Assembly: GCA_027012915.1 (NCBI GenBank)
Contig: JALUYN010000509.1
Location: 1-9,545, forward strand
Direction: 5' to 3'
From: Cellvibrionaceae bacterium
GTDB lineage: Bacteria > Pseudomonadota > Gammaproteobacteria > Pseudomonadales > Cellvibrionaceae
DNA length: 9,545 bases
Shown here: positions 5,123 through 7,153 of the stretch, piece by piece
Layout: each line of letters opens with the position of its first letter
Numbering within the stretch: position 1 is the stretch's first letter
Made by a program: the position numbers and the translations under genes
Notes under the pieces: generated by a model
Database searches by the model: none
What the model was told of the DNA's origin: nothing
Seen by the model: only the letters and a program-made list of their open reading frames with translations

Positions 5123-5155
5123 TTGTTGACGCCTGCGTATATGCTGATAATATAC
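5123..5155 (+). promoter_or_regulatory. brnTA promoter and operator, predicted leaderless start
   Basis: Two overlapping readings fit: TTGACG (5126-5131) with TAATAT (5148-5153), spacer 16, or TTGTTG (5123-5128) with GATAAT (5146-5151), spacer 17. Either -10 box ends only 6-8 nt before the brnT ATG at 5160, so the mRNA would begin at or next to the start codon. The arms GTATAT (5137-5142) and ATATAC (5150-5155) form an inverted repeat over the -10 region, a likely BrnA site. Confidence 0.65.
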
Positions 5156-5159
5156 TTTT

Positions 5160-5471
5160 ATGATCAATTGGGCACAAGTTACTGGCTTTGACTGGGACGA
5201 AGGCAACTCCCGAAAAAACGTGAAGAAACATGGCGTAAACCAGTCCGAAGCGGAAGAAATTTTCTTTAATGAGCCGCTTCTGGTGTTGGAGGATTCCAAA
5301 CACAGCCAGACTGAGGCCCGTTTTCATGCTCTTGGTGAAACAGATGACGAGAGATTGCTCCACATCACGTTCACACTGAGGCAGAACGGTACGCTGATTC
5401 GGGTGATTTCCGCTCGCGACATGCACCGAAAAGAGAGGGCTGTTTATGAGCAAACCAAAAAAGATGCCTGA
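5160..5471 (+). CDS. brnT: BrnT-family toxin (ribonuclease)
   Basis: This 103-residue protein reads VTGFDWDEGNSRKNVKKHGV, the BrnT opening (F-x-WD-x-x-K/N-x-x-x-N-x-x-KHGV). It continues with SEAEEIFF, DSKHSQTEARFHALGETDDERLLHITFTLR and IRVISARDMHRKERAVYE. BrnT has a RelE-like fold and acts as a ribonuclease that stops translation. The start at 5160 lacks a Shine-Dalgarno sequence, and the predicted promoter leaves almost no leader. The gene overlaps brnA by 26 bp. The operon points opposite to the array polarity inside its cassette, so it must rely on its own promoter. Confidence 0.93.
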   Translation: MINWAQVTGFDWDEGNSRKNVKKHGVNQSEAEEIFFNEPLLVLEDSKHSQTEARFHALGETDDERLLHITFTLRQNGTLIRVISARDMHRKERAVYEQTKKDA

Positions 5472-5718
5472 GTTCAAAACTGAAGCAGAAGAACGGGAAT
5501 TCTGGGAAACTCACGATTCCACCGACTACCTGGACTGGGGCCAGGCCAAGCCTGCATCGTTCCCGAAGCTGAAACCCTCAACCAAGACCATCTCACTCCG
5601 GTTGCCGGAAACTCTGCTTGATCGGATCAAGATCGAAGCCAACAAGCGGGACATGCCTTATCAATCGCTGATCAAGGCTTGGCTTGCGGATGATGTAAAC
5701 GACAGTCGTCGGACATGA
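5446..5718 (+). CDS. brnA: BrnA-family antitoxin
   Basis: This 90-residue protein has the BrnA layout. The acidic N-terminal part EEREFWETHDSTDYLDW contacts the toxin, and the C-terminal ribbon-helix-helix reads TKTISLRLPETLLDRIKIEANKRD and PYQSLIKAWL at about 47-80. It binds DNA as a tetramer and represses brnTA. The start at 5446 lies inside brnT with GAGAGG about 6 nt upstream, so it has its own ribosome binding site while being coupled to the toxin gene. Its stop at 5716-5718 is 2 bp before attC site E. Confidence 0.93.
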   Translation: MSKPKKMPEFKTEAEEREFWETHDSTDYLDWGQAKPASFPKLKPSTKTISLRLPETLLDRIKIEANKRDMPYQSLIKAWLADDVNDSRRT

Positions 5719-5720
5719 GG

Positions 5721-5798
5721 TGCTAACGCCCACCATCACCGGTGACAAAACCAGAGCGAAGCGGAGGTTTTGGCATCCGGTGCATGGCCTGGTTATGC
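5721..5798 (-). other. attC: attC site E
   Basis: TGCTAACGCCC at 5721-5731 and CCTGGTTATGC ending at 5798 bound a 78-bp site. Minus-sense arms CCATGCACCGG and CCATCACCGG pair with one extra G on the R'' side. It contains the stop of higA-1 (5795-5793). It is almost identical to site F, with about four differences over some 72 bases. Confidence 0.9.
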
Positions 5799-6107
5799 AG
5801 CATGTAGCGGCTTGATTCGATCCACTTCTTCCTTGACCGACTGCGCAGCAGTCCAAAGATCAACAGACCGCTGTGCGTTCAGCCAGAATTCTGGCGAGTT
5901 ACCAAACAAACGCGCAAGCCTGAGCGCCATTTCAGGGCTGACAGCACGGCGTTCCCGCAATAGTTCATTCACTGACTGACGAGAGACACCCAAAGATTCG
6001 GCCAACCCCGAAACCGTCAGACCATAGTCCGGAAGAAAGTCTTCCCTCAGCATTTCGCCAGGATGAGTCGGTTTGCGCTGCATGCCAGCAGTATTAAGAA
6101 TAGCCAT
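5793..6107 (-). CDS. higA: HigA-family antitoxin, XRE-type HTH
   Basis: This 104-residue protein contains the HigA signature RKPTHPGEMLREDFLPDYGL followed by an XRE helix-turn-helix (SGLAESLGVSRQSVNELL, about 34-51) and the tail SPEMALRLARLFGNSPEFWLNAQ. It should neutralise the HigB toxin encoded just upstream and repress their promoter. I prefer ATG 6107 to the in-frame GTG at 6116 or ATG at 6113, because GAGGTG then lies about 6 nt upstream; the earlier codons overlap or touch that ribosome binding site. The stop lies inside attC site E. Confidence 0.92.
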   Translation of the reverse strand: MAILNTAGMQRKPTHPGEMLREDFLPDYGLTVSGLAESLGVSRQSVNELLRERRAVSPEMALRLARLFGNSPEFWLNAQRSVDLWTAAQSVKEEVDRIKPLHAA

Positions 6108-6121
6108 GGTCATCACCTCAC

Positions 6122-6403
6122 TCAGTGGTAGTCACACACTTCGACTTCATACGCATCGCCACCTTCAAAACGAAAACAGATACGCCACTGATCATTGATT
6201 GAAATTGCGTGCTGCCCCTGCCTGTTTCCCGACAGTGGGTGAAGGCGATTGCCGGGCGGCACTTTCAAATCCTCAAGCTGTACGGCCAGATCCACGTATT
6301 CAAGTTTTCTAGCGGCTCTCGGTGCAACATCCGCAGGAAATTTCTTTGACTTGCCCTTGGCGTAGAGTTCTTGGGTTCGTTTGTCAGCGAAGGATTTGAT
6401 CAT
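6122..6403 (-). CDS. higB: HigB-family toxin
   Basis: This 93-residue protein starts MIKSFADKRTQELYAKGK and contains ARRKLEYVDLA-like text, then LKVPPGNRLHPLSGNRQGQHAISINDQWRICFRF and EVEVCDYH. The NR-x-H-x-L-x-G-x-R-x-G-x-x-x-I-x-x-N-x-x-WR-x-x-F-x-F pattern is diagnostic for HigB, a ribosome-dependent mRNA endonuclease of the RelE superfamily. The toxin gene comes first, the hallmark gene order of hig modules, and higA follows 14 bp later at its preferred start. No Shine-Dalgarno sequence precedes the ATG at 6403, and the -10 box ends 7 nt before it. Confidence 0.93.
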   Translation of the reverse strand: MIKSFADKRTQELYAKGKSKKFPADVAPRAARKLEYVDLAVQLEDLKVPPGNRLHPLSGNRQGQHAISINDQWRICFRFEGGDAYEVEVCDYH

Positions 6404-6410
6404 GAAACAA

Positions 6411-6439
6411 AGTGTATTTCGTCACGTGACGCTTGTCAA
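6411..6439 (-). promoter_or_regulatory. higBA-1 promoter with a 12-bp operator palindrome
   Basis: On the minus strand a perfect TTGACA (6439-6434) and TACACT (6416-6411) are separated by exactly 17 bp. The spacer holds the perfect 12-bp palindrome CGTCACGTGACG (6420-6431), the likely HigA site. With 7 nt between the -10 box and the ATG, transcription should begin within about 2 nt of the start codon. Confidence 0.8.
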
Positions 6440-6457
6440 CGAGACGAAGGAATGACT

Positions 6458-6535
6458 GCATAACGCCCGCCATCACCGGTGACAGAACCGCAGCGAAGCG
6501 GAGGTTTTGGCATCCGGTGCATGGCCTGGTTATGT
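6458..6535 (-). other. attC: attC site F
   Basis: GCATAACGCCC at 6458-6468 and CCTGGTTATG ending around 6535 bound a 78-bp site, with arms and extra G as in site E. It lies just after the higA-2 stop (6544-6542) and before the higBA-1 promoter. Confidence 0.9.
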
Positions 6536-6541
6536 GCTGCC

Positions 6542-6829
6542 TCAGGCTGCAACAAGCTTCTTCACGTTGAGCTCTTTGCGATGTTGTTCAGCATGCCAAA
6601 GTTCATATTGGGACTGCTGATTTAGCCAGCTTTCTGCCGAGGTATCGAAAGCGATAGAGAGCCGGATCGCCATTTCTGGACTAATGCCGGCCTTGCCATT
6701 CAACACGGCACTCAGCGTTTTGCGGCTAACGCCCAATGCCTCTGCTGCTGCTGTGACAGAAAGGCCAAGGGGCTCAAGACAAAGCTCTCGCAGCACTTCA
6801 CCCGGGTGCGGAGGGTTGTGCATTAACAT
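6542..6829 (-). CDS. higA: HigA-family antitoxin, XRE-type HTH
   Basis: This 95-residue protein has NPPHPGEVLRELCLEPLGLS near the N-terminus, then an XRE helix-turn-helix (TAAAEALGVSRKTLSAVLNG, about 26-45) and SPEMAIRLSIAFDTSAESWLNQQSQYELW. These are canonical for the HigA/VapI group. The start at 6829 is served by TGAGGT, which overlaps the higB-2 stop. It pairs with the HigB directly upstream. Compared with HigA-1, the HTH core is similar but the ends differ, so the two modules are separate acquisitions or old paralogues. Confidence 0.93.
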   Translation of the reverse strand: MLMHNPPHPGEVLRELCLEPLGLSVTAAAEALGVSRKTLSAVLNGKAGISPEMAIRLSIAFDTSAESWLNQQSQYELWHAEQHRKELNVKKLVAA

Positions 6830-6839
6830 TGGCGGTACC

Positions 6840-7118
6840 TCAGTGATAATCTTCGTAGTTCACAATCTCGGCATCTCCGTCTTCGAACCGGAAGGTCACT
6901 CGCCAGTTACCGCTGACGGTCACTGACCAGATTCCGGCACGATTGCCAGAGAGCTCATGCAAGCGAAGACCGGGTAAGTCCATATCTTTGGCATTCGATG
7001 CTGCATTCAATCTACCGAGAATTAGCCGAAGCCTCTTTTCATGAGCGGCCTGAATCCCTGCAGTACTGCCGGACTTGAAGAATTTTGCCAAGCCCTTGTG
7101 TTTGAAGCTTCGAATCAT
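6840..7118 (-). CDS. higB: HigB-family toxin
   Basis: This 92-residue protein starts MIRSFKHKGLAKFFKSGSTAGI, the widespread HigB opening. It carries KRLRLILGRLNAA, then LPGLRLHELSGNRAGIWSVTVSGNWRVTFRFEDGDAEIVNYEDYH. That is a full, intact HigB with the L-x-L-x-GNR-x-G-x-W-x-V-x-V-x-x-NWR-x-x-FRF core and the usual C-terminal YEDYH. It is a predicted ribosome-dependent mRNA endonuclease. AAGGA precedes the ATG at 7118 but would lie upstream of or at the predicted transcription start, so it may not be in the mRNA. Confidence 0.95.
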   Translation of the reverse strand: MIRSFKHKGLAKFFKSGSTAGIQAAHEKRLRLILGRLNAASNAKDMDLPGLRLHELSGNRAGIWSVTVSGNWRVTFRFEDGDAEIVNYEDYH

Positions 7119-7124
7119 TCCTTG

Positions 7125-7153
7125 AATGTACCCTGTAACGTATCAGGTGTCAA
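7125..7153 (-). promoter_or_regulatory. higBA-2 promoter with an imperfect operator palindrome
   Basis: On the minus strand a perfect TTGACA (7153-7148) and TACATT (7130-7125) are separated by exactly 17 bp. The spacer contains the imperfect palindrome CCTGTAAC/GTATCAGG (7132-7147). Only 6 nt separate the -10 box from the higB-2 ATG. Confidence 0.8.

Follow-up and report, generated by a model that had tools for sequence, protein, structure and literature searches.

The toxin-first BrnTA and HigBA toxin–antitoxin (TA) modules studied here probably encode their toxin in a predicted leaderless 5′ cistron with weak translation initiation and their antitoxin in a Shine–Dalgarno (SD)-led cistron with strong initiation, so that one autoregulated promoter would give antitoxin excess. 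We assign this reading, which rests on sequence comparison, a probability of about 0.7. RNA polymerase would start on, or at most about 2 nt from, the A of the toxin AUG; the toxin cistron would then sit leaderless at the 5′ end, with the antitoxin cistron internal and preceded by an SD of its own. Ribosome initiation would be weak at the leaderless toxin AUG but strong at the antitoxin, and the single autoregulated promoter would yield an excess of antitoxin despite the toxin gene being first. In one review, antitoxin excess in toxin-first operons is ascribed to extra antitoxin promoters (PMC7167474). If our reading is true, toxin leaders of zero length in two unrelated families would explain antitoxin excess in a simpler, testable way, a leaderless toxin with a leadered antitoxin would be a simple built-in route to less toxin than antidote, and many naturally leaderless genes would be available for study in proteobacterial TA modules.

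TA modules in the window

The window is the whole analysed stretch of 9,545 nucleotides from a Cellvibrionaceae bacterium (contig JALUYN010000509.1). The attC-like sites listed below, to which no strand is assigned, come from our own pattern finder; the first three promoters come from the sequence and a pattern scan, the last two from scan and scoring, and the SD-like motifs were read from the sequence.

5038..5121: attC-like site before brnTA
5126..5153, plus strand: predicted brnTA promoter, TTGACG-16-TAATAT, −10 end to ATG 6 nt
5160..5471, plus strand: brnT toxin gene (Pfam BrnT_toxin, PF04365)
5433..5438, plus strand: SD-like GAGAGG of brnA
5446..5718, plus strand: brnA antitoxin gene (Pfam CopG_antitoxin, PF12441), overlapping the brnT 3′ end
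5721..5798: attC-like site after brnTA
5793..6107, minus strand: higA-1 antitoxin gene (HTH_3), ORF listed from GTG 6116 but probably starting at ATG 6107
6114..6120, minus strand: SD-like TGAGGTG of higA-1
6122..6403, minus strand: higB-1 toxin gene (PF05015)
6411..6439, minus strand: predicted higBA-1 promoter, TTGACA-17-TACACT, −10 end 7 nt from ATG 6403
6458..6535: attC-like site between the higBA modules
6542..6829, minus strand: higA-2 antitoxin gene (HTH_3)
6837..6842, minus strand: SD-like TGAGGT of higA-2
6840..7118, minus strand: higB-2 toxin gene (PF05015)
7125..7153, minus strand: predicted higBA-2 promoter, TTGACA-17-TACATT, −10 end 6 nt from ATG 7118
7157..7240: attC-like site beyond higBA-2, partly matching a Salinivibrio plasmid
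2472..2500, plus strand: predicted ccdAB promoter, TTGAAT-17-TAAAAT, −10 end 34 nt from ccdA ATG 2535
4578..4606, minus strand: predicted phd-parE promoter, TTGCCC-17-TATAGT, −10 end 30 nt from phd ATG 4547

ORFs and Pfam matches place a PF04365 toxin first and a CopG/RHH antitoxin second in brnTA, and a PF05015 toxin first and an HTH_3 antitoxin second in both HigBA modules. All three toxins start with ATG, that of brnT (5160) being the first start codon past an in-frame stop in the ORF list. In each, the −10 box stands where an SD would be, as in leaderless genes, at a distance of 6 (or 3), 7 and 6 nt; the 3 refers to an alternative brnT −10, TATACT, which scores 11.0 under our matrix vs. 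10.8 for TAATAT. The original prediction, which had put these boxes 6–8, 7 and 6 nt before the brnT, higB-1 and higB-2 ATGs, is thus confirmed, together with its two perfect TTGACA boxes with 17-bp spacers (higBA-1 and higBA-2) and its second-gene SDs GAGAGG, GAGGTG (within TGAGGTG) and TGAGGT before brnA, higA-1 and higA-2. Judged by SD spacing, ATG 6107 is the more likely start of higA-1, since the listed GTG 6116 overlaps the SD. Counting against the clean picture is an SD-like run, AAGGA (7123..7119), which abuts the higB-2 ATG, nearer than a normal SD.

The antitoxin-first modules had been predicted to carry their −10 box about 30 nt before the ATG, and this holds at 34 nt for ccdA, at 30 nt for phd and, with a weak promoter (score 6.3), at 30 nt for a second phd at 3863. 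The window-wide count from the pattern scan, 8 promoters vs. 5.4 ± 2.1 expected, has no significance alone; the weight for promoter placement is carried by a survey of related loci.

Four attC-like sites surround the three toxin-first modules at cut-off 8, as expected of cassettes; the finder is a rough home-made pattern search rather than a curated model and may miss sites, and six shuffled windows gave 0/6 at cut-offs 7, 8 and 10 and 1/6 at 9. No integrase was found among 10 proteins searched with Pfam or 8 with NCBIfam in a window that may end short of one, and no Rfam family matched in the window at gathering scores. A near-identity search of positions 5001–7260 against plasmids returned one 78-base match.

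Promoter-to-start distance in related loci

The distance d was counted as the nucleotides lying between the 3′ end of the best −10 box and the start codon, and loci with d 4–9 were called near, a class picked with the finding and the printed upstream regions in view; the same scoring, with matrix frequencies that were not trained, was applied to all families and the baseline. The samples are best-scoring relatives rather than random draws. Loci without a downstream partner ORF, with an abutting upstream same-strand ORF, with N runs, with short upstream sequence or redundant with others were removed. Dropped rows comprised L147 and, for the reasons in brackets, L053 (N-terminus unmatched), L395, L403, L176, L177 and L179 (partial), L255, L272, L330, L423 and L433 (internal stop), L443–L451 (weak or partial) and L087–L090 (below cut-off), and two further loci were unused. 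An acceptable start codon was lacking in rows of HicA (5), PF05015 (3), MqsR, PF09907, ParD and Phd (1 each), and the start of L039 was shifted one codon upstream by hand.

The original prediction had proposed comparing −10-to-ATG distances in higBA and brnTA cassettes with those in antitoxin-first families, and the survey shows a difference: 118 of 171 non-redundant BrnT and HigB PF05015 loci are near, vs. 1/65 for CcdA, ParD and Phd and 17/309 for ordinary ORFs. The mode is exactly 6 (82/171). By distance, 2 loci fall at 0–3, 118 at 4–9, 7 at 10–19, 30 at 20–40 and 14 at 41–100, i.e., 53/171 lie outside the near class. After collapsing to less than 50% upstream identity, near loci still make up 60/102 vs. 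1/63. Without any matrix, TANNNT occurs at d = 6 in 50–52% of loci vs. about 2% background, and TTG peaks 34–36 nt before the ATG; shuffled upstream regions place the best promoter at d 4–9 in about 5–7% (sets with more than one locus). Under the same scoring, lambda cI, a known leaderless gene, gives d = 6 and cro gives d = 24. The six bases immediately upstream of the ATG are poorly conserved in both HigB sets (0.37–0.64 bits in total), although the distance is kept; the BrnT total is 1.29 bits. These data support a near-zero predicted toxin leader as the majority architecture in the sampled BrnTA and PF05015 HigBA loci. A second, leadered architecture exists in the same families, with the predicted −10 box about 20–40 nt away and often with an SD.

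As a side check outside the survey counts, 12 plasmid HigBA loci were picked for variety from 60 listed of 609 matches, and 4/12 were near (Polaromonas, d = 8; Rhizobium, 6; Roseomonas, 7; Thiolapillus, 6). The others were Aeromonas (43), Legionella (26), Shinella (38), Spirosoma (66), Providencia (30), Pantoea (30), Acinetobacter (20) and Xanthobacter (14, from a start set 6 nt downstream of the annotated one).

The proposed rule, that toxin-first operons are leaderless and antitoxin-first operons leadered, is therefore supported for BrnTA and PF05015 HigBA (118/171) against CcdA, ParD and Phd (1/65), and fails with gene order as the determinant: toxin-first RelE PF06296 is near in 2/15 loci, HigB PF09907 in 9/22 and phage-borne HigB in 11/36 (far in 22/36), while 32 of 37 Mycobacterium tuberculosis TA pairs with a primary transcription start site (TSS) are leaderless (PMC3898074). 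HicA (near 2/6) and MqsR (1 usable first gene) are too few to judge. Nor is the rule a feature of cassette TA modules: 108/118 near loci have no attC-like site in the ranges searched with our rough finder, and we reject a cassette-specific cause.

Initiation signals and alternative explanations

An SD of at least 4 bases precedes few near toxins: 3/22 and 1/13 in the BrnT sets (far, 2/5 and 3/8), 1/18 in PF05015 (far, 3/5), 7/55 in HigB-2 relatives (far, only 2/8), 1/11 in phage HigB (far, 11/22) and 2/9 in PF09907 (far, 10/12). The SD frequency of first-gene toxins is at the shuffled level, whereas second-gene antitoxins, with starts chosen crudely as the first ATG of the downstream ORF, have an SD in 81% (BrnT), 96% (PF05015) and 89% (HigB-2 relatives) of cases. 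A −10 box at d = 6 occupies the place of the SD, so that the lack of an SD is linked to where the promoter lies. Second-gene toxins have an SD in 36% (CcdA), 20% (ParD) and 35% (Phd) of operons vs. 20–24% in shuffled sequence. In an extended form of the proposal, the pairing of a leaderless toxin AUG with an SD-led antitoxin would let the toxin:antitoxin ratio directly read out the initiation state of the ribosome, conditions favoring 70S or SD-independent initiation raising the toxin share from the same mRNA; in a wider form still, type II toxins would be denied an SD in either gene order. We consider this distinctly improbable, and the MazF specialised-ribosome work behind the idea of stress induction is disputed (PMC7167474).

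Inverted repeats, in a search run without a shuffled control, are centred upstream of the −10 box in 45/45 near HigB loci with a repeat found, and we infer that they are the antitoxin's operator. The toxin of Vibrio cholerae higBA2 belongs to another RelE branch. The operator of that operon is similarly placed, running from after the −35 box across the −10 box (PMC11006873).

The main rival holds that the near-promoter mRNA yields essentially antitoxin only and that toxin comes from rarer, longer transcripts. Near-class toxins mostly lack an SD, the autoregulated hicAB transcript of Escherichia coli, cut at the hicA ribosome-binding site, supports HicB only (PMC7167474), and a Caulobacter crescentus higB translational fusion shows almost no baseline activity (PMC13384398), all of which fit. 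However, any leader that is too short would then do and d should scatter, whereas 70/101 high-scoring near loci have exactly d = 6; the start is ATG, which leaderless translation prefers, in 98/101 of these, a weak point given 24/27 among far loci; and the Caulobacter fusion becomes active once LexA is removed (PMC13384398). We regard this explanation as unlikely, and the next as equally so: compaction of a small mobile module may have packed operator and core promoter against the gene, with no selected role for leaderlessness. The repeats upstream of the −10 box mean that nothing need sit downstream of it, and the bases before the BrnT ATG are partly conserved, perhaps as operator. Compaction nevertheless predicts scattered short distances, whereas 6 dominates and 10–19 is nearly empty; leadered versions occur in the same families, often with an SD, and most near loci, as noted above, have no attC-like site. 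Very unlikely is an ordinary leader made from a main start further upstream, e.g., at an integron Pc or in a neighbouring cassette: the near-promoter +1 in the window is a prediction and promoter-finding algorithms did poorly on gene-less integron cassettes (PMC11014356), but both higBA modules run opposite to brnTA, so that one Pc cannot serve all three (the array direction not being fixed), both higB promoters score 12.8 vs. 5.3 and 5.4 for the next best within 100 nt, and the arrangement is found again well outside the window's genera, in Desulfuromonadales, Nitrospinota and Anaerolineae by unchecked contig titles. For the preferred reading, a leaderless toxin followed by an SD-led antitoxin, we infer the actual start sites and translation ratio from promoter position and conservation and from the SD pattern.

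Comparison with known systems

Most TA pairs of M. tuberculosis are antitoxin-first, so that leaderlessness there is no device aimed at the toxin. The operon mRNA begins at the first AUG, as predicted here, whereas a quarter of all genes of that species are leaderless (PMC3898074). Lambda cI shares the modal −10-to-AUG distance of BrnT and HigB (d = 6), and leaderless translation has been shown experimentally for paaR2; in both, however, the first gene encodes a repressor rather than a toxin (PMC8630535).

E. coli hicAB is likewise toxin-first, and its autoregulated transcript denies the toxin a usable leader and favors the antitoxin. This transcript begins inside the hicA ribosome-binding site and reportedly yields no toxin, whereas the predicted 5′ end in the window coincides with the AUG (PMC7167474). 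More generally, E. coli TA operons translate the antitoxin better than the toxin, RelB for example at six times the level of RelE, although this bias is described for antitoxin-first systems, the reverse systems receiving extra antitoxin promoters in that account (PMC7167474).

Caulobacter higBA differs in being under LexA control too, and it is not known to have been labelled leaderless (PMC13384398). At baseline its higB translational fusion is almost undetectable while the transcriptional fusion is apparently high, for which the authors blame an unknown post-transcriptional regulator. The mapped TSS (3281528) and the higB start codon (3281524) give, by our own subtraction of the published coordinates, a leader of 4 nt (PMC13384398). 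With its toxin gene first, a TSS mapped some 4 nt away from the higB start codon and a weak baseline translational fusion, this HigBA operon resembles the architecture predicted for the window.

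Toxin-first modules of the window and their relatives

The window carries three toxin-first modules, which are flanked by four attC-like sites:

5160-5718, + strand: brnTA
6403-5793, - strand: higBA-1
7118-6542, - strand: higBA-2

The original prediction, that toxin-first operons are leaderless for the toxin and antitoxin-first operons are not, rested on spacings which we reproduced: the -10 element ends 6 (or 3), 7 and 6 nt 5′ of the three toxin ATGs, and the distance to the antitoxin ATG in the antitoxin-first modules is 30, 30 (weak) and 34 nt. The Shine–Dalgarno (SD)-like sequences it had placed on the second genes of the toxin-first modules are also present. 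In higB-2, AAGGA abuts its own ATG.

Among the loci compared, the top DNA matches of higBA-2 are from Marinobacter (L003, 96.3%; L002, 96.9%), and that of brnTA (L085, 95.1%) lies in the genome of L002. A 78-base attC-like stretch (7160-7237) is 90% identical to L001:3001-3078 on a Salinivibrio megaplasmid, a sequence match hinting at cassette exchange among marine genera. The window genes at 1379-2049 and 2065-2412 share 80-81% DNA identity with Halomonas ventosae NRS2HaP1 (L053), with 81% over 2065-2412. At about position 3001 of L053, the match of a higB relative to the window ends at higB codon 23 while the antitoxin side goes on, and its promoter and N-terminus seem absent or replaced. 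Adjoining the ccdAB module, 2058-2405 (-) encodes ribonuclease Z only as far as its N-terminal third (positions 2-112 of the 302 in the profile), is stop-terminated and looks like a truncated gene. The 288-aa protein encoded at 8420-9286 (-) has no match in NCBIfam; by eye, we take it to be like a Wadjet JetD-type protein.

Promoter position across toxin–antitoxin families

Related loci were surveyed with start codons fixed by Pfam profile offset, or by the matched protein start for sets from relative searches, and without use of the promoter. First genes with a downstream partner ORF and no abutting same-strand upstream ORF were kept and made non-redundant on the 60 nt upstream. Promoters were scored with a simple, untrained sigma70 matrix, which gave the best hit whose -10 ended 0-100 nt before the start codon, this distance being d (near, 4-9 nt).

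Loci with a near promoter, by family.
BrnT, Gammaproteobacteria: 22/27
BrnT, phylum sample: 13/21
HigB PF05015: 18/24
HigB-2 relatives: 55/64
Phage-borne HigB: 11/36
HigB PF09907: 9/22
CcdA: 0/22
ParD: 1/20
Phd: 0/23
RelE PF06296, toxin-first: 2/15

Pooled BrnT and PF05015 HigB loci, made non-redundant jointly, have near promoters in 118/171 cases, compared with 1/65 for pooled CcdA, ParD and Phd loci and 17/309 for baseline ORFs of at least 150 codons from the same loci. The Fisher p for the two pools (7e-24 at 80% redundancy, 6e-16 at 50%) ignores relatedness, and we therefore place more weight on the recurrence of the effect in unrelated toxin families. Hand-picked plasmid HigBA loci are near in 4/12.

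The same scorer places lambda cI, described as leaderless (PMC8630535), at d = 6 and the leadered cro at d = 24. The survey mode is likewise d = 6. At this distance, TANNNT is present in 52% of the BrnT loci and 50% of the PF05015 HigB loci, against a background of about 2%, and in these loci TTG is most frequent 34-36 nt 5′ of the ATG. Together, these positions indicate that the promoter is sited as it would be for transcription beginning at the A of the ATG, consistent with toxin-first BrnTA and PF05015 HigBA mRNAs being leaderless for the toxin.

Phage-borne HigB loci (IMG/VR contigs L335-L406) mostly show a second architecture, in which some 20-35 nt separate the -10 from the ATG and an SD is present in 11/22. 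In L175, a PF09907 HigB locus, a long near-perfect palindrome (TTGACATATTGGCAAC...GTTGCCAATATGTCAA) spans promoter and leader 5′ of the start.

Translation signals and operators

By a 4-base criterion, an SD precedes the first-gene toxin in 19% of BrnT, 21% of PF05015 and 14% of HigB-2-relative operons (shuffled, 14%, 23% and 20%, respectively), whereas the second-gene antitoxin has one in 81%, 96% and 89%. PF09907 is the exception, at 55% for the toxin and 77% for the antitoxin. Among operons of the antitoxin-first families CcdA, ParD and Phd, the SD is found on 64%, 85% and 83% of first-gene antitoxins and on 36%, 20% and 35% of second-gene toxins. Within families, an SD is missing from the near class and frequent in the far class, most clearly in PF09907 (2/9 near vs. 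10/12 far) and phage-borne HigB (1/11 near vs. 11/22 far); HigB-2 relatives deviate (7/55 near vs. 2/8 far). Since a -10 at d = 6 and an SD need the same place, SD absence and promoter position are linked.

An inverted-repeat search, run without a shuffled control, gave putative antitoxin sites above cut-off in 45 near HigB loci. In all 45, the centre of the repeat is 5′ of the -10; its median distance from the -10 centre is 12 nt, and in a quarter it is at least 25 nt, which places it level with the -35 or further upstream. The far loci (n = 15) have the repeat upstream of the -10 in 7, over it in 3 and downstream in 5. We read this as two solutions: either the operator lies within or upstream of the core promoter and there is no leader, or a leader is present and the operator extends into it. 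The V. cholerae HigA2 footprint is reported to start after the -35 and extend over the -10 (PMC11006873).

Scope of the rule and known systems

Gene order as a law, as first proposed, was not borne out: most PF06296 and phage HigB loci have a leader, and M. tuberculosis toxin–antitoxin pairs are described as mostly leaderless (PMC3898074). The accurate form of the rule is one of families and architectures. Our search of open-literature listings, and of passages from the papers cited here, on leaderless transcripts and start sites (higBA, BrnT, HigB/HigA, graTA, TA, superintegron) found no statement of higB or brnT leaderlessness in Proteobacteria; an earlier report may exist. Older start-site work on V. 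cholerae higBA reportedly exists. Leaderless genes are uncommon in Proteobacteria of this kind. For Burkholderia cenocepacia, 72 genes are reported to start at the annotated start and a further 42 within 10 nt, 24 of those leaderless transcripts being tRNAs (PMC4603805), and 171 leaderless start sites are reported for Sinorhizobium meliloti (PMC3616915).

Stronger translation of antitoxins than of toxins is already known from E. coli (PMC7167474). In Caulobacter, the published higBA start (3281528) and higB start codon (3281524) give, by subtraction, a leader of 4 nt (PMC13384398). At baseline, the same study reports an almost undetectable translational fusion and a transcriptional fusion that appeared high, for which its authors invoke an unknown post-transcriptional regulator; the almost missing leader may account for some of this contrast.
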